A stretch of DNA of 60,127 bases, taken from the NCBI GenBank assembly GCA_016213785.1, contig JACQZQ010000028.1, positions 1 to 60,127 of the forward strand, given 5' to 3'. Each line of letters opens with the position of its first letter. Position 1 is the first letter of the stretch. The position numbers and the translations under genes were made by a program. Of the stretch, positions 36,787 to 43,884 are shown piece after piece. Below the pieces are notes generated by a model, which ran no database searches, was not told the DNA's origin, and was given only the letters and a program-made list of their open reading frames with translations. Origin of the DNA: Acidobacteriota bacterium (lineage in GTDB: Bacteria > Acidobacteriota > Blastocatellia > Chloracidobacteriales > JADJPF01).

Positions 36787-38361
36787 ATGGAAGTCTTATT
36801 AAAATCCGTCTCATTAGAAACATCTAAGTGGTCAGAAATAATAATAGAAAATATATCTGATGGAATTATAGTTTTAGACGGTTCTTATATAATAAGACTT
36901 TTTAACAAGCAAGCAGAAAGAATTTTTGGGTATTTAGCATACGAAGTACTAGGAAAAACTCTTAATGTTATATTACCAAACCTTTTTCTAGAGGCATCTA
37001 GGAGCAATATAGCTAATTTCCCAATTGTTCCAGCTATTTTGTGGGGAAAGAGTGAAAGAAAAGAAATTTATGGGAAAAGAAAAGACGGACTAGAGCTTAT
37101 ATTAGAAGCATCTTTATCTAAATGCTATTCTGATGGAGAATCACTATCCATCATTAGTTTCCAAGATATAACAGAAAAAAAGCTATCTCAAAACAAATTG
37201 GGAAAGCCTAAGGCGAATATAGAAGAACAAATTGAAAATATAAATGAATATCTCGCAAAACTATCTTTGTCACTGCAACAAGAAACATTTGAACAAAATC
37301 TATTTGAAGCTATAAACAATAAACTTTTTACTGCTATAAAACATACCTCAGAGTCAATTGTAATTTTTGATAAGAAAGGGACTATAGATTATGTAAACCC
37401 TTCATTTGAAAGAATAACTGGTTATGAGAGTAAAGAAGTTTGTTGTCATAGAATAAAGGGGTTAATTGGGCCAAATTCTATAAAAGAGTATAAAAAAATT
37501 CTTGAAACACTCTTTAAAGATGAGAAGTGGCAAGGAACTTATTGGGCTAAGAAAAAAGATGGCTCTCTTTACGAAGAAGAAACTACTATTTTACCTGTTA
37601 AATCTAGTCAAGGTGAAACTATAAGTTATGTTGCTATAGGGAGAGATGTTACTGAAAAGAAAAGATTTGAATCTATAATAGACTCAGTAGATATGATGAA
37701 AAATGTAGGTTACATTTTTGCTGGAATTAGACATGAATTAGGTAATCCAATTAATTCAATTAAAACCTCTCTTAGTGTCCTAAAAAAAGGGCTTGATAGC
37801 TATTCCCAGGATTCAATTTTAGTTTATATAGAAAGAGCGCTTTCAGAGATTACTAGAGTAGAATACCTGCTTAAAGCTTTAAAAAGTTTTAGTATGTATG
37901 AAAACCTAAAACTAGAAAAAATAAACTTAGCTCCTATTATGGAGAAATTTTGTTCATTAGCTAAGGAAGATTCTGAGAAAAAAGGAATAAAACTGGGCTT
38001 ACATTGCAGTACTAAAGAAATATCCGCATTAATTGATCAAAGAGCTTTTCATCAAGTGATGCTAAATATTTTTTCTAATGCTGTAGATGCATTAGAAGGA
38101 CGTTCAAACCCAACAATTGACATTTTTCTTTATATTGATGATAAATTTGCTAAAGTTGAAGTTATAGATAATGGTGTAGGTATATCAGATTCCCAAAAAG
38201 AAAAACTATTTAAGCCTTTTAACACTTTCAAGCCTCAAGGAACTGGTTTAGGTTTAGTTATAACAAAAAAACTTATAACTAATATGCAAGGCACCTTAGA
38301 AATAGATAGTATTTATAATTCTGGAACAAGAGCAACAATTGTATTAGATAAGCTTGTATAA
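36787..38361 (+). CDS. PAS-PAS sensor histidine kinase (NtrB-like)
   Basis: 524 residues, cytoplasmic (no membrane helix). PAS 1 covers about 12-130 (DGIIVLDGSYIIRLFNKQA), a coiled-coil linker follows, and PAS 2 covers about 178-292 (YVNPSFERITGYES, then VAIGRDVTEKK). The kinase core has the phospho-acceptor His316 in RHELGNPINSIK, the N-box MLNIFSNAVDAL, and DNGVGIS plus GTGLGLVI for ATP binding. HELGNPIN resembles the NtrB-type H-box. It is followed by an NtrC-type regulator, its likely partner, after a 370-base gap that carries a sigma54 promoter. The signal is unknown; PAS domains suggest a cytoplasmic ligand or redox cue. Confidence 0.88.
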   Translation: MEVLLKSVSLETSKWSEIIIENISDGIIVLDGSYIIRLFNKQAERIFGYLAYEVLGKTLNVILPNLFLEASRSNIANFPIVPAILWGKSERKEIYGKRKDGLELILEASLSKCYSDGESLSIISFQDITEKKLSQNKLGKPKANIEEQIENINEYLAKLSLSLQQETFEQNLFEAINNKLFTAIKHTSESIVIFDKKGTIDYVNPSFERITGYESKEVCCHRIKGLIGPNSIKEYKKILETLFKDEKWQGTYWAKKKDGSLYEEETTILPVKSSQGETISYVAIGRDVTEKKRFESIIDSVDMMKNVGYIFAGIRHELGNPINSIKTSLSVLKKGLDSYSQDSILVYIERALSEITRVEYLLKALKSFSMYENLKLEKINLAPIMEKFCSLAKEDSEKKGIKLGLHCSTKEISALIDQRAFHQVMLNIFSNAVDALEGRSNPTIDIFLYIDDKFAKVEVIDNGVGISDSQKEKLFKPFNTFKPQGTGLGLVITKKLITNMQGTLEIDSIYNSGTRATIVLDKLV

Positions 38362-38731: not shown

Positions 38732-40087
38732 TTGAATAAAAGACTTGTACTTATTATTGATGATAATAAGCTTTTTGCTGAATCTACAAAAGATTTTCTT
38801 GTTAATGATTATCTAGACATTTATACAGCAAGTTCATTAGCAAATGCTCTTGAACTGTTATCTAAAAAGCACTTTGATGTTGTTTTACTAGATAATAGTC
38901 TCCCTGATGGAGATGGATTAAATTGTGTAAAAGATATTTTAGCCTTAAATGATCAAACAAAAATAATTTTAGTTACAGGTTATCCTAGTTTTGAGAACGC
39001 GGTTCAAGCACTTAAAAAAGGAGTTTATGATTATTTTTCTAAACCAATAGAAATTGACGAATTACAAGTTGCTATTAACCGTGCTATTAGAGTAAGTGAG
39101 TTAGAAAAAGTTGAACAAATACAAAATTATAAAAACCGTGTTGAGAGTGAAGATATTTTATTCATTGGTACAGGAGCGAAATTTGATGAAATTAGAAAAC
39201 TAGTTGAAAAGGCTTCAATGGTTAATGTCCCTGTTTTAATTACTGGCGAAACTGGAACAGGAAAAAGTTTATTGGCTAAATATATTCATTACAATAAAGA
39301 AAAAACACGCCCTTTTATTAGCGTAAATTGTGCAGCATTGCCAGAAAATTTAATTGAATCAGAGCTTTTTGGTGCAGAAAAAGGTTCATATACTGGCGCA
39401 ATTTCTACACGCAAAGGGCTTTTTGAGATTGCAGATGGTGGGACATTATTTTTAGATGAGATTGCAGAAATACCTATTCACTTACAATCTAAACTTTTAG
39501 GAGTATTGGATGATAAAAAAGTCCGTCGTTTAGGCGGTGAAATTTATAGAAGTGTTAATACTAGAACAATTGCAGCAACAAATGTTGATTTAGAGGATTT
39601 TGTTCTACAACGCCGTTTTCGTAATGATCTTTTTTATAGACTAAATGTTATTAGCATACACCTACCACCCTTGCGAGAACATAAACAAGATATTCCTACA
39701 TTTTGTAAATATTTTATTAATAAATTATCTCCTAATAAGAAATTTCAAATAGCTGACAATGAGTATAACAAGTTAATTTTATATGATTGGCCTGGCAACA
39801 TTCGTGAGTTAAAAAATATTATTGAACGCTCAATAATTTTGCAGGATAGTAATTTTCTACAGCCCTCTTTATTGCTAGGAAATGTCCTTAAAGAAAAGTC
39901 TAGTGCATCAGTCAAAGAGCAAAAAGACTTACCTTCTCTAGATTTAATCAACCAAAAACATATAGAAACAGTCCTTAACAACCATTCAGGTAATCTTACT
40001 CGTACGGCTAAAGTCCTAGGTATATCTCTTTCTACATTAAAACGAAAACTTAAAGAATTTGGTATTAAATATAGTGGGTCAAAATAA
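38732..40087 (+). CDS. Sigma54-dependent response regulator, NtrC family
   Basis: 451 residues. Receiver domain (about 1-120) with Asp54 in LLDNSLPDGDG and Lys104 in FSKP. AAA+ activator domain (about 142-370) with Walker A GETGTGKS (172-179), sigma54-contact loop GSYTGA at 218-223 (the consensus GAFTGA with Ser-Tyr in place of Ala-Phe) and Walker B GGTLFLDE. A C-terminal Fis-type helix-turn-helix (AKVLGISLSTLKRKL) closes it. Translation starts at a TTG with GGAG at 38720. It follows the PAS histidine kinase and should be its regulator. It can be expected to act on the sigma54 promoters at 38638 and 40215. Confidence 0.92.
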   Translation: MNKRLVLIIDDNKLFAESTKDFLVNDYLDIYTASSLANALELLSKKHFDVVLLDNSLPDGDGLNCVKDILALNDQTKIILVTGYPSFENAVQALKKGVYDYFSKPIEIDELQVAINRAIRVSELEKVEQIQNYKNRVESEDILFIGTGAKFDEIRKLVEKASMVNVPVLITGETGTGKSLLAKYIHYNKEKTRPFISVNCAALPENLIESELFGAEKGSYTGAISTRKGLFEIADGGTLFLDEIAEIPIHLQSKLLGVLDDKKVRRLGGEIYRSVNTRTIAATNVDLEDFVLQRRFRNDLFYRLNVISIHLPPLREHKQDIPTFCKYFINKLSPNKKFQIADNEYNKLILYDWPGNIRELKNIIERSIILQDSNFLQPSLLLGNVLKEKSSASVKEQKDLPSLDLINQKHIETVLNNHSGNLTRTAKVLGISLSTLKRKLKEFGIKYSGSK

Positions 40088-40357: not shown

Positions 40358-41695
40358 ATGAAAACAATACTACTAGTTGATGATGAAAAATTATTCCTAA
40401 GCAGTTTATCTGAAGGGTTAACTAAACTTTTCCCACAAGTAAACATTGTTACTGCTCAGAATGGTCTAGAAGCAATAAAAATTTTAGATGCTCAAGATGT
40501 TATTTTAATAATTACAGACCTACAAATGCCTGTTATGTCAGGCTTTGAGTTACTTGAGTGTTTGATGAATGATTATCGAGAAATATCTATTATAGTTATG
40601 ACGGCTTATGGAAATATAGAAATAGAGGATAACCTTTCTAATTGTGGTTCTATTATATACTTAGAAAAACCTATTGATTTTCAAGCTTTAGCTGAACATA
40701 TCCAAGCTATAGTAGCACCAACAGCCAAAGGTCATATCAAAGGCATTGATTTGCCTAATATATTACAACTACTTTATTTAGAACATAAAACTTGTACTTT
40801 AACAGTTTATTCTAAATCTCGTGTAGGTTATTTATATTTTATAGATGGTGAGCTTATTGATGCAGAGTTTGATTTATTTAAAGCTGAAAATGCAGCTTAT
40901 GAAATCCTTAAATGGGTAAAACCTGAAATTGAAATTGAAAGCATTTCAAGCAAAACAATTAGAAATATAAAATTACCACTAGATCATATACTTTTGGAAG
41001 CAGCTAAAAAACAAGATGAGCATAGAAGAGATACTGGTAGTTTCCGTAGAAGTGCCTTAGACCTTCCAATAGCTAACTTAAATAGTTCTCTTCAAGACTT
41101 TAGAAAGTCTGAGCCTAAAAACACTGAGGGCAAAATAAATTTATTAAGTAATGATGATAACCCTCTTGAGCTTGATTTTAATTCTTCAACCTTTGATAAA
41201 AATAACATAAACGATATTAGTCTATTAGAAATAGACAAAAATCTTTCACTAGATAAAAATCTTTCAGAAAATACATTACAAAATTATACAGCTGCGATCA
41301 ATATTAGTTCAAATAATAGACAAACAATATCTTTAGAACAATTTGTTAATATATGGTCAAAAAATGCTGTTTTAATTGTTGAAAAATCTGCTCTTGCGTT
41401 TATTAAAAATATCTCAAAAAATAATACAATTATCTTACAAGGAACAAATGATCATATTGAAATTTTATCTGAACAAATAACTAAAGTTTTAGATATAGTA
41501 CTCTACCTTGTCGAGAACTCTTCTCAAGGCTCTTTTGAATATGTAAGTAACTTATTTGGACTTACTTTTGTTTGGAATTTAGATAGTAAATATATTGTTG
41601 TAATAATAGATATTTTTGTTGATAATGATAACAATTCTTTTATTTGGTTTCGCAGATATAAAAGTTTTCTAGAAAAAAATTTTTCATTAGGCTAA
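40358..41695 (+). CDS. Receiver-DUF4388 protein with unknown C-terminal domain
   Basis: 445 residues. The receiver (about 1-120) is intact: VDDEK, Asp54 in ITDLQMP, Thr82 in MTAYG and Lys104 in LEKP. A DUF4388 (PATAN-like) domain follows at about 128-215 (LPNILQLLYLEHKTCTL, YLYFIDGELIDAE). A polar linker (about 220-320) carries an 18-bp duplication coding DKNLSL/DKNLSE. The last 125 residues form an alpha/beta domain that may be a divergent roadblock-like fold, which I cannot confirm. DUF4388 regulators occur with roadblock and small-GTPase systems in deltaproteobacteria and Acidobacteriota. Downstream of a sigma54 promoter and upstream of a roadblock-like gene, it is probably the first gene of a small operon. 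Confidence 0.85.
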   Translation: MKTILLVDDEKLFLSSLSEGLTKLFPQVNIVTAQNGLEAIKILDAQDVILIITDLQMPVMSGFELLECLMNDYREISIIVMTAYGNIEIEDNLSNCGSIIYLEKPIDFQALAEHIQAIVAPTAKGHIKGIDLPNILQLLYLEHKTCTLTVYSKSRVGYLYFIDGELIDAEFDLFKAENAAYEILKWVKPEIEIESISSKTIRNIKLPLDHILLEAAKKQDEHRRDTGSFRRSALDLPIANLNSSLQDFRKSEPKNTEGKINLLSNDDNPLELDFNSSTFDKNNINDISLLEIDKNLSLDKNLSENTLQNYTAAINISSNNRQTISLEQFVNIWSKNAVLIVEKSALAFIKNISKNNTIILQGTNDHIEILSEQITKVLDIVLYLVENSSQGSFEYVSNLFGLTFVWNLDSKYIVVIIDIFVDNDNNSFIWFRRYKSFLEKNFSLG

Positions 41696-41788: not shown

Positions 41789-42196
41789 ATGGGAAAAATA
41801 GACGATGCTTGCAGAACCGTAGTTCAAAATGTAGAAGGAGCTATTGCTTGCGGAGTAGTAGATCTAGATTCAGGTTTACTTTTAGGGATATTTAACTCAT
41901 CTCAATACACACAAACCCTCAATGAGATAGTTGCTGCTGCTTCAGTAGACTTATTTAGAGGAGCTAACCTTGGGCGTGTAGAACAATTAGTTCGTCAGCA
42001 TAGGGGTTTACCAGAAAATGGAGAAAGATATTTTCAAGAAATTCATATAACATCTGCTCATAACTATCATTTTGCTAAAGTACTTAAAAATGGTAGAGCG
42101 GTAGTTATGCTTGTTACTAAGAAAACTACTAATGTGGGTATGGGTTGGGCACAATTAAAACTTTCGATTCCTATCTTAGAACCATTACTACCTTAA
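41789..42196 (+). CDS. Roadblock/LC7-like small protein
   Basis: 135 residues, AGGAG at good spacing. The pattern of a short helix, then GVVDLDSGLLLGIF (beta strands with the DxxSG turn), a long helix, and AKVLKNGRAVVMLVTKK followed by a final helix fits the roadblock/LC7 (MglB-like) fold, which controls small GTPases or dimerises as a scaffold. Sequence similarity is weak, so this is a fold-level call. It follows the REC-DUF4388 gene by 93 bases and precedes the kinase-like gene. No MglA-type GTPase is seen in the window. Confidence 0.6.
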   Translation: MGKIDDACRTVVQNVEGAIACGVVDLDSGLLLGIFNSSQYTQTLNEIVAAASVDLFRGANLGRVEQLVRQHRGLPENGERYFQEIHITSAHNYHFAKVLKNGRAVVMLVTKKTTNVGMGWAQLKLSIPILEPLLP

Positions 42197-42199
42197 TCT

Positions 42200-42251
42200 A
42201 AGAATGTGGACTACAATTTTTTAGCTATATCTTTATGTAGTCCACATTCTT
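42200..42251 (+). terminator. 16-bp hairpin between roadblock-like and kinase-like genes
   Basis: Perfect 16-bp arms (42200-42215 and 42236-42251), core GAATGTGGACTACA, with a 20-base loop. There is no T run, and the next ATG is only 15 bases away with no clear Shine-Dalgarno. It could be a partial terminator or a structure that controls the next gene. Confidence 0.55.
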
Positions 42252-42266
42252 ATAGCATTTAATCTT

Positions 42267-43121
42267 ATGACACAAGTAATTAAACCAACATTTCCTTGTG
42301 CAGAACTTCCTGATTCTTTCTTTTGGCCTGTAAGTAACCGTAATTACATATCTTCTATCACACTAGAAACTCTAGAAAATTGTACAGAATTAACCGGCCA
42401 ACAAGGTTTAGCTGATGGGAGTGGTAAATCAGATGCTTTTATTTACAAAACAGGAAATTGGTGCTTAAAAACATCCCTAAGAAATCGCTTTAAGAGTATT
42501 GATGAAGGCCAAGAAGCTTTAGTTAAACTATCTAAAAAAAAATTTTGCCTTGATCACTTACTCCCTCCAAAAACAATTCTTGTACTTCAGCCAGAAAATG
42601 AGAAATATTTTTGGCTCTGGACAATTACTCCCTGGTATAAAACCCTACGGTCATTAATGATAGAAGCTGTTGAAACTAATAACGAACCCCTTCTTGCTGC
42701 CGCACTTCAAGCCTATGCTAGAGTATCTATAGACTCACTTGTTATTACTTCACAGAAAAATCTTTCACTAGATATTCATCCTAGTAATTTTGCTTTGCCA
42801 GATTATTCCCCTAGTAACAAAATAGAGCTTATTAATTACGAAAATGTTGTTTATTTAGATGATGATATGATAGAAACAACAGATTGTTTGATTATTGGCT
42901 ATGCTTTGCTAAAACGAATTGATGAGTATGAAAAATGGAGTAAAGCTCTTAGTATATATATCTTAACATTAGAAGATGCTATTTTGACCAAACTTACACA
43001 AAAAGACGTGAGAAAATTGCGTCTATTACAAGCTTTCCAAGATATTCCATTAAGAACAACTTTAGCTCAAAAGATCAGAGAAGATATTGTCTCAATAATA
43101 AAACAATGTCAAAACCTCTAG
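42267..43121 (+). CDS. Kinase-like-fold protein with degenerate active site
   Basis: 284 residues, soluble. I do not recognise the family, but the middle reads like an aminoglycoside-kinase/protein-kinase fold: a strand with Lys68 (WCLKTS), an aromatic hinge WLWTITPW, the catalytic-loop-like LDIHPSNF (Asp169 and Asn174 with the correct five-residue spacing) and IELINYEN where the DFG-type metal Asp would be. Asn190 stands in the DFG Asp position, which suggests a pseudokinase or altered chemistry. A run of three acidic residues, DDD, follows at 198-200. No good ribosome site precedes the ATG; a strong hairpin lies just upstream. It is followed 13 bases later by the phosphoesterase gene, so the two are almost certainly co-expressed. 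Confidence 0.55.
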   Translation: MTQVIKPTFPCAELPDSFFWPVSNRNYISSITLETLENCTELTGQQGLADGSGKSDAFIYKTGNWCLKTSLRNRFKSIDEGQEALVKLSKKKFCLDHLLPPKTILVLQPENEKYFWLWTITPWYKTLRSLMIEAVETNNEPLLAAALQAYARVSIDSLVITSQKNLSLDIHPSNFALPDYSPSNKIELINYENVVYLDDDMIETTDCLIIGYALLKRIDEYEKWSKALSIYILTLEDAILTKLTQKDVRKLRLLQAFQDIPLRTTLAQKIREDIVSIIKQCQNL

Positions 43122-43134
43122 AAATTCTACTTAT

Positions 43135-43884
43135 ATGTTACTAGCTGTTATTGCAGATCTTCATGCTAACTTACCAGCATTAGAAGCGGTTTTAGTTGAA
43201 ATAAAAGAACTAAGGCCTGATCTTATTTTGTGTCTTGGTGATATTGTTGGTTATAATGCAGAACCTGCAAATACAATAGATTTATTACGAGAAACTACCA
43301 AATATGTTGTAGCTGGTAATCATGATGTTGATACCATAAGCCAAAACTCTGTTGCAGGAACCAATAAAGATGCCCAATTAGTTTTAAGTTGGACTAAAGA
43401 AAATCTTTTAGAAAAGCATTTATCATATCTAGCTAATTTACCTAATAAAATAATTTATGAAAACGAGTTTGTAGGAGCACATGGCTGCTACTTAAATGAT
43501 ACACATATAAATGGTTATGTTACTAGTAGTATGTTAGAAGAAAACCTAAAATCTCTTCTTAATAGATCTAACTGGCCTACAATTGCTTTTTGTGGACACA
43601 CCCATATTGCTTTAGTTGGTTGGTTAGAAAATGACCTTTGTATAGAAAATAATGCTAAAGAACCTATTACTTGGCCTAAGCATGCTAGAGCCGTGATAAT
43701 AAACCCTGGTTCAGTAGGTCAACCCAGAGATGAAGATATTAGAGCGTCTTTTGCTTTGGTTGACTTAACCAAAAGAAAAATAACCATTAAGCGTGTTAGC
43801 TATGATATAGAAAGAACCATTTCAGCCATTAATCAAGCTAACCTACCTATTAAACTTGCAGATAGACTAAGAAAAGGTCGATAA
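43135..43884 (+). CDS. YfcE/MJ0936-family metallophosphoesterase
   Basis: 249 residues, a single calcineurin-like domain. The two-metal site is complete: ADLHANL, LGDIVGYNAEP, AGNHD, a His in VGAHG and GHTH, ending with NPGSVGQPRD. Such enzymes cleave phosphodiesters or phosphoesters; the natural substrate is usually unknown. The ATG lies 13 bases after the kinase-like gene. Together they could form an opposed modifying/demodifying pair, which is inference. No signal peptide, so it acts in the cytoplasm. Confidence 0.88.
   Translation: MLLAVIADLHANLPALEAVLVEIKELRPDLILCLGDIVGYNAEPANTIDLLRETTKYVVAGNHDVDTISQNSVAGTNKDAQLVLSWTKENLLEKHLSYLANLPNKIIYENEFVGAHGCYLNDTHINGYVTSSMLEENLKSLLNRSNWPTIAFCGHTHIALVGWLENDLCIENNAKEPITWPKHARAVIINPGSVGQPRDEDIRASFALVDLTKRKITIKRVSYDIERTISAINQANLPIKLADRLRKGR

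Follow-up and report, generated by a model that had tools for sequence, protein, structure and literature searches.

An apparently active, unnamed kinase-like protein encoded between a predicted Roadblock protein and a metallophosphoesterase in an Acidobacteriota bacterium

In the present study, a stretch of 60,127 nucleotides from an Acidobacteriota bacterium (contig JACQZQ010000028.1 of a 6.4-Mb genome assembly; hereafter, the window) was found to encode a protein of an unnamed kinase-like family between a predicted Roadblock protein and a metallophosphoesterase. Herein, we propose, with a confidence only just on the favourable side of even, that a catalytically competent kinase and an opposing phosphoesterase form a reversible modification pair tied to a Roadblock/GTPase module. 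The basis of this proposal is the predicted fold, the conservation of catalytic and metal-ligand residues, the gene order and the gene fusions, and from it we infer an activity, an opposed action, a target and an input. The kinase would attach a phosphoryl-type group, through phosphorylation or nucleotidylation, to a target, and the phosphoesterase would strip off the group so attached. The target would most likely belong to the neighbouring signalling module, as either the MglB-like Roadblock protein or its Ras-like GTPase partner, and the upstream two-component genes would feed a signal into the Roadblock/GTPase complex. The genes and the intergenic element concerned are as follows.

36787..38361, + strand: PAS sensor histidine kinase (Pfam), of uncertain module membership
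38732..40087, + strand: sigma-54 response regulator (Pfam), of uncertain module membership
40358..41695, + strand: response regulator of 445 aa with receiver and DUF4388 domains (PF00072, PF14332)
41789..42196, + strand: predicted Roadblock/LC7 (MglB-like) protein of 135 aa (AlphaFold2 model and Foldseek)
42199..42252, + strand: perfect inverted repeat of 17 bp, lying after the Roadblock stop and ahead of the kinase start (folding)
42267..43121, + strand: kinase-like protein of an unnamed family, 284 aa, an open ORF with an ATG start and with the catalytic residues retained
43135..43884, + strand: calcineurin-like metallophosphoesterase of 249 aa with the metal-ligand residues intact (PF12850)

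The order on the + strand is histidine kinase, sigma-54 regulator, receiver-DUF4388 regulator, Roadblock protein, kinase and phosphoesterase. The kinase stop ends at 43121 and the phosphoesterase ATG lies at 43135, leaving the 13 bases that the original prediction had counted between the two genes. The inverted repeat folds with -24.4 kcal/mol (z -6.5) and is without a U tract; a genome-wide repeat was considered for this hairpin and rejected, its 16-base arm being found at one genomic place only (at most 1 mismatch). Strong hairpins of different sequence, for which no shuffle control was run, were also observed between the Roadblock and kinase genes of L021 and L022. Genes judged by eye to be efflux-like lie 3' of the phosphoesterase.

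First, a bilobal protein-kinase-like (PKL) fold is predicted for the window kinase. The AlphaFold2 model, built from 8 sequences, reached a pLDDT of 87.8 and a pTM of 0.87, and VIA-align scored it at Z 8.7-10.2 against Bud32/PRPK, AAK1/BIKE and APH(3')-Ia kinases. The best chain was PRPK (7sza_A; Z 10.2, rmsd 4.3, 193 aligned), tied with BIKE and Bud32 within 1 Z, and a Z of 10.2 at rmsd 4.3 is modest, since, as the tool itself warns, 7-8 is typical of models that match nothing clearly. The best 50 Foldseek matches were protein-kinase domains, including the RNase L kinase-homology domain and the JAK2 JH2 pseudokinase, together with APH(3')-Ia; one match was obtained at E<=0.001, and the TM-scores by query length ranged from 0.23 to 0.39 in these best 50. 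The structure prediction suggested with the original prediction thus returned a kinase-like fold, matching protein-kinase domains and APH; HipA gave no Pfam match and was absent among the structural matches listed, which does not speak against a HipA relationship. In contrast to Bud32/PRPK, AAK1/BIKE and APH(3')-Ia, the window kinase has no HRD histidine and no detectable sequence relation to these proteins. No match to Pfam or NCBIfam, Hanks-type PF00069 included, was obtained for it at E<=1, and no kinase family was matched by 11 homologues at E<=10 in Pfam. A PDB sequence search with the family profile gave a best E of only 0.47. For APH (PF01636), no Pfam match was found, and hhalign with 27 APH domains gave a probability of 0.3 (P 0.19), a non-significant alignment in which D199 is in register with the IDxE aspartate. 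The hhalign comparison with 29 Pkinase domains from related genomes was likewise not significant (P 0.054); in it, D169 and N174 are in register with the HRD Asp and Asn, and K68 lies six residues off the VAIK lysine. When run on 282 genomes from G448's phylum, the family profile caught one Hanks-type kinase (L040, E 2.3e-4), with D169 and N174 matched to the HRD Asp and Asn of L040. In a PADLOC search for a defence role, the window kinase, phosphoesterase and Roadblock protein and the L025 GTPase-kinase gave no match, and the L025 ABC-PTP protein gave three that were weak and partial.

Second, the catalytic set is conserved in a clade of relatives. Homologues of the window kinase show 29-43% identity. 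In a search of 98 genomes, matches at E<=1e-20 were obtained in 5, the window's own included, and matches at E<=0.01 in 7, namely its own, the four strongly matching G004, G005, G014 and G026 (E no higher than 6.3e-25) and a further two, at E 0.002-0.005, which were not used; with strong matches in 5/98 genomes and motif columns among the most conserved, the family matches exceed chance. Genomes with a member, intact or degenerate, at E<=0.001 numbered 10/396 in the window's phylum (two doubtful), 6/282 in the phylum of G448 (one being the Hanks kinase), 34/289 in the class of G449 and 3/193 in the class of G451, in sets that overlap and of which the first three are samples of larger groups. 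The loci fall in Blastocatellia, Polyangia, Deltaproteobacteria, Myxococcales and Vicinamibacteria. Profile iteration over 61 stretches, window included, yielded 66 domain rows, or 65 without L120, a duplicate of L050. The weak matches in G037, G062, G164 and G251 and the Hanks-kinase match L040 were left out of the context table, as were at least four matches in the class of G449 (G912:C43:577772, G912:C43:579944, G926:C519 and G926:C323). The tree omits the columns of K68, D169, N174 and D199, and from it a clade of 18 rows was picked by hand, consisting of sub-clades of 14 rows (92/91) and 4 rows (98/90) within an open fork of 20 (90/87), unresolved with the degenerate L088 and L119, which were left out. 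The residues concerned are the following.

42468..42470, + strand: codon of Lys68, the VAIK-type lysine, present in 17/17 clade rows and 0/46 outside
42771..42788, + strand: catalytic loop D169-I-H-P-S-N174, with D169 and N174 both in 18/18 rows
42804..42839, + strand: insert of the window kinase, about residues 180-191, containing Asn190, an alignment gap in relatives
42861..42863, + strand: codon of Asp199, the DFG-type aspartate within VYLDDD, assigned by its presence in 18/18 rows and by spacing

In the 18-row clade, no variation is seen in 10 of the 206 columns (G51, S52, K68, L127, L168, D169, P172, N174, Y196 and D199), with G51 and S52 in 16/16 rows, K68 in 17/17 and D169, N174 and D199 in 18/18, while the share of the commonest residue averages 0.54 over the clade columns. 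Invariant catalytic columns against such a mean are the pattern expected of an enzyme selected for ATP-dependent catalysis. Adding L088 and L119 changes the counts to 17/19 for K68, 18/20 for D169 and N174 and 19/20 for D199; among the rows outside the clade that have a letter, K68 is found in 0/46, D169 in 10/43, N174 in 2/42 and D199 in 14/38. In the window protein, K68 falls in a predicted strand (65-70) of the AlphaFold2 model, and D169 and N174 form the D-x4-N pattern, which the profile aligns to the loop of the Hanks kinase.

The original prediction named K68, D169, N174 and N190 correctly, and its gap and its phosphoesterase also stood, but its placing of Asn190 at the DFG-type position did not. 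N190 belongs to the 10-12 window residues around 180-191 that have no counterpart in the alignments of 6 and 8 sequences; in the larger alignment, its column is a gap in the other 17 clade rows, and letters occur there in L048 and L108, both of them degenerate and not part of the clade. Conservation thus upholds D169 and N174 and fails N190, and the conserved acid is D199, at whose site three acids in a row (YxDDD) are usual in relatives. From Asn174 to Asp199, the distance is 13 residues in 11/17 and 15 in 6/17 of the other clade rows, and from Asp169 to Asp199 it is 18 or 20 in all 17, compared with 25 and 30, respectively, in the window protein. In PKA, the catalytic Asn and the catalytic Asp precede the DFG Asp by 13 and 18 residues. 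The misassignment of the DFG-type residue therefore arose from the insert in the window protein. A pseudokinase through loss of the DFG Asp is rejected, because K68, D169, N174 and D199 are all kept and conserved. Judged from its sequence, the window gene is real and kinase-like, the pseudokinase label is unsupported, and the protein, with its catalytic set retained, is apparently active rather than dead-looking. The kinase-type matches of the model, the invariant catalytic columns and the independence of the tree from the four key columns favour activity; against it stand the missing sequence match to kinase families, the modest structural scores, the presence of RNase L and the JAK2 JH2 pseudokinase among the structural matches, the absent HRD His and the displacement of K68 from the VAIK lysine.

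Third, the genes around the kinase point to a signalling module. The 135-aa protein has, in its AlphaFold2 model (pLDDT 82.5, pTM 0.75), the Roadblock/LC7 alpha-beta-beta-alpha-beta-beta-beta-alpha fold; its top Foldseek match is 6hjm, the MglB of M. xanthus (prob 1.00, E 3.6e-8), and further Roadblock proteins were matched as well. No Pfam match was found for it at E<=1, and nothing better than E 0.7 was obtained with the Roadblock profile in a PDB sequence search. Members of this family sometimes escape the Pfam model, according to passages of PMC4316618. A kinase row was counted as intact when all four catalytic residues were present, and neighbours were identified with purpose-built HMMs over the fetched stretches; in all of these counts, contig ends may conceal some neighbours. 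A Roadblock gene is near 15/17 intact rows compared with 11/48 others, and one of the two exceptions, L023, is cut by the contig start, which places its upstream neighbours beyond view. L027, truncated at a contig end, has an otherwise intact motif and was scored as not intact only because its Lys lies off the contig. A DUF4388-type gene is near 7/17 intact rows, and a gene for an ABC-ATPase/DSP-phosphatase fusion is near 11/17 intact rows compared with 10/48 others. A fusion of the kinase domain with an MglA-like GTPase is seen in 7/17 intact rows (L024, L025, L026, L045, L047, L085 and L087), the GTPase part of L025 giving an Arf-type Pfam match. A receiver domain is fused to a kinase-like domain in L005:1495-3063 (G026), within the 17-kb stretch L043, in which no Roadblock, GTPase or phosphoesterase match was obtained with the HMMs.

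The ABC-type ATPase-DSP/PTP phosphatase partner was located by HMM at L023:1946-2986, L024:6571-7626, L025:6610-7671, L026:6553-7581 and L027:1101-2180, and Pfam supports the fusion in L024 and L025 (PF22785/PF22784). Single open frames joining receiver, DUF4388 and Roadblock domains were also observed with the HMMs (L026:1138-2526, L045:10336-11544, L047, L085 and L087), with the receiver and DUF4388 parts recognized by Pfam for the L026 and L045 frames. Against the GTPase-module reading, the GTPase HMM gave no match at E<=1e-4 over the 60-kb window, and a search of the window's genome for ABC-PTP, run without a positive control, gave no match; on other contigs of this genome, an MglA-like gene lies beside a Roadblock-like ORF and another MglA-like gene is an orphan.

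These neighbours bear on a metabolic explanation, in which an APH/Bud32-type kinase would phosphorylate a metabolite, the phosphoesterase would hydrolyse that metabolite, one related to it, or Ap4A, and the Roadblock protein would be an operon regulator or a mere neighbour. The structural matches include APH(3')-Ia and Bud32/PRPK, the D-x-H-P-x-N loop of the window kinase presumably resembles APH-type loops, and the phosphoesterase resembles stand-alone YfcE-like enzymes (below the NCBIfam cut-off) and 3qfm, which we take to be an Ap4A hydrolase. However, the GTPase and receiver fusions and the Roadblock-rich loci suggest signalling rather than metabolism, and we consider this explanation unlikely. 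A second alternative, to which we assign a distinctly low probability, is a transferase of kinase fold whose reaction is other than phosphorylation, for example AMPylation, with the phosphoesterase as a de-AMPylase. SelO is an example of a kinase fold that AMPylates, and metallophosphoesterases are able to cleave phosphodiesters. The replacement of the HRD His by Leu, with Leu168 before the catalytic Asp in 18/18 clade rows, and the usual run of three acids would suit such chemistry, but the catalytic set is that of an ordinary kinase.

Fourth, the reversible pair proposed here depends on the phosphoesterase and on how regularly it accompanies the kinase. The neighbour was correctly described as an intact metallophosphoesterase: it matches PF12850 (Metallophos_2) with E 8.6e-20 and 71.7 bits against a cut-off of 27, its nearest solved chain is 3rqz_A (E 3.5e-32), and D8, H10, D36, N62, H63, H116, H155 and H157, which we take to be the family-typical metal-ligand positions, are present in 13/13 aligned phosphoesterases, window included. 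For 12/17 intact kinases, a phosphoesterase is encoded no more than 3 kb away on the same strand. It is the next gene in 9 (window, L023, L024, L025, L026, L044, L045, L046 and L047), and in L110 (G923), L112 (G818) and L118 (G866) kinase and phosphoesterase share a single open frame, with the phosphoesterase part confirmed by Pfam. At these last three loci, a gene joining a GTPase to a degenerate kinase domain comes directly after the shared frame. The intact kinases without a phosphoesterase are L022, L043, L085, L087 and L089; the genome of L022 holds a second copy, L044, that has one, and L043, the receiver-kinase fusion, has substitutions at two of the three DDD acids. At 44/48 other rows the phosphoesterase is absent, and the remaining 4 are L027 and three degenerate GTPase fusions beside kinase-phosphoesterase fusion genes. 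A Fisher test of intact kinase against phosphoesterase gave p 1.9e-6, a value that ignores kinship and is not taken at face value, because the tree, on which 3 kinase-trait changes are needed, gives only 1 (starred) to 3 independent pairs and leaves a sign test powerless. Since the intact rows nearly form a single clade, the association amounts to few independent events, almost one.

The opposed switch offered in the original prediction is therefore upheld in part: adjacency at 9 intact-kinase loci and a shared frame at 3 speak for it, and the 5/17 intact kinases without a phosphoesterase and the scarcity of independent replicates on the tree speak against it, so that the pairing as an opposed switch may be regarded as indirectly supported. 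The same two objections would suit a common operon in which kinase and phosphoesterase act on separate substrates and are neighbours for other reasons. However, the adjacency is kept across loci from Blastocatellia, Vicinamibacteria, Polyangia, Deltaproteobacteria and Myxococcales, and the two domains form single open frames in three genomes; we hold little credence in separate substrates.

Degenerate relatives of the kinase are common, with an MglA-like GTPase attached in 44/47. Many genomes encode such fusions (L048-L057, and L085-L123 for the most part), whose kinase part is without K68 and mostly without the Asp/Asn; these genomes are mostly in the class of G449 and in some cases in the window's phylum (G311, G438 and G439). 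L089:3332-5527 (G840) encodes, in one open frame, a GTPase with two tandem degenerate kinase-like domains and adjoins an intact kinase without a phosphoesterase. From their sequences, the degenerate fusions are probably GTPase-pseudokinase proteins. For the window protein itself, the nucleotide-sensing pseudokinase of the original prediction has only the slimmest chance, because, although N190 exists, K68 is lost in all 46 relatives outside the clade and pseudokinase domains occur among the structural matches, the protein keeps K68, D169, N174, D199 and the G-S loop residues, its N190 lies in an insert, and the degenerate copies are found elsewhere.

Beyond the reversible pair, a wider scheme might be outlined tentatively, and we would not yet give it an even chance: a bacterial G-protein kinase system in which a Roadblock-controlled Ras-like GTPase would switch a kinase-fold enzyme, often in the same polypeptide, one dedicated phosphoesterase and the ABC-ATPase/DSP phosphatase would erase the modification, the many kinase copies decayed to pseudokinases may act as GTPase effectors, and the window would carry a reduced form with the GTPase in trans. 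The presence of GTPase and kinase in one chain in L024, L025 and L026 presumably recalls LRRK2/ROCO; compared by description only, the domain order, the GTPase family and the kinase family differ. The MglA/MglB polarity module of Myxococcus xanthus is also similar, with an MglB-like predicted Roadblock fold in the window and MglA-like GTPase domains in relatives, but it differs in that the window has no GTPase match over its 60 kb, and to our knowledge no kinase-fold or phosphoesterase component belongs to the M. xanthus module. The DUF4388 domain is, we assume, the domain called PATAN. PATAN response regulators occur near mglA/mglB (PMC4316618, citing Makarova 2006, in the passages concerned), and similarly the receiver-DUF4388 gene of the window adjoins the Roadblock gene. 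The conservon (Cvn) of Actinomycetota, described in parts of PMC4316618 and PMC13343842 as comprising a histidine kinase, a Roadblock protein, CvnC and a GTPase, likewise places a histidine kinase gene and a Roadblock gene in a common cluster, whereas the window lacks a GTPase match and adds the kinase-fold protein, the metallophosphoesterase and the DUF4388 regulator. Thus, the relevant passages of PMC4316618 already cover conservons, modules that combine Roadblock and GTPase proteins, and mgl genes with PATAN-type regulators nearby; the survey there, as described in those passages, excluded GTPases over 240 aa, and the GTPase-kinase fusions would for this reason fall outside it. Among the matches listed from open-licence PMC papers, a scope that leaves most subscription papers and preprints outside, no description of the kinase-phosphoesterase-Roadblock combination was found. 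The finding amounts to a kinase family that has no name, looks active and forms part of Roadblock/GTPase modules.

Bacterial Ras-like GTPase/Roadblock modules control polarity and development, and we know of few output enzymes for them. If the proposal is true, a kinase fused to a GTPase, sometimes with a phosphoesterase, would supply these modules with a direct enzymatic output, and the question of what the GTPase switches would become testable using a few purified proteins. Moreover, intact kinases and pseudokinases form a natural series within the family.
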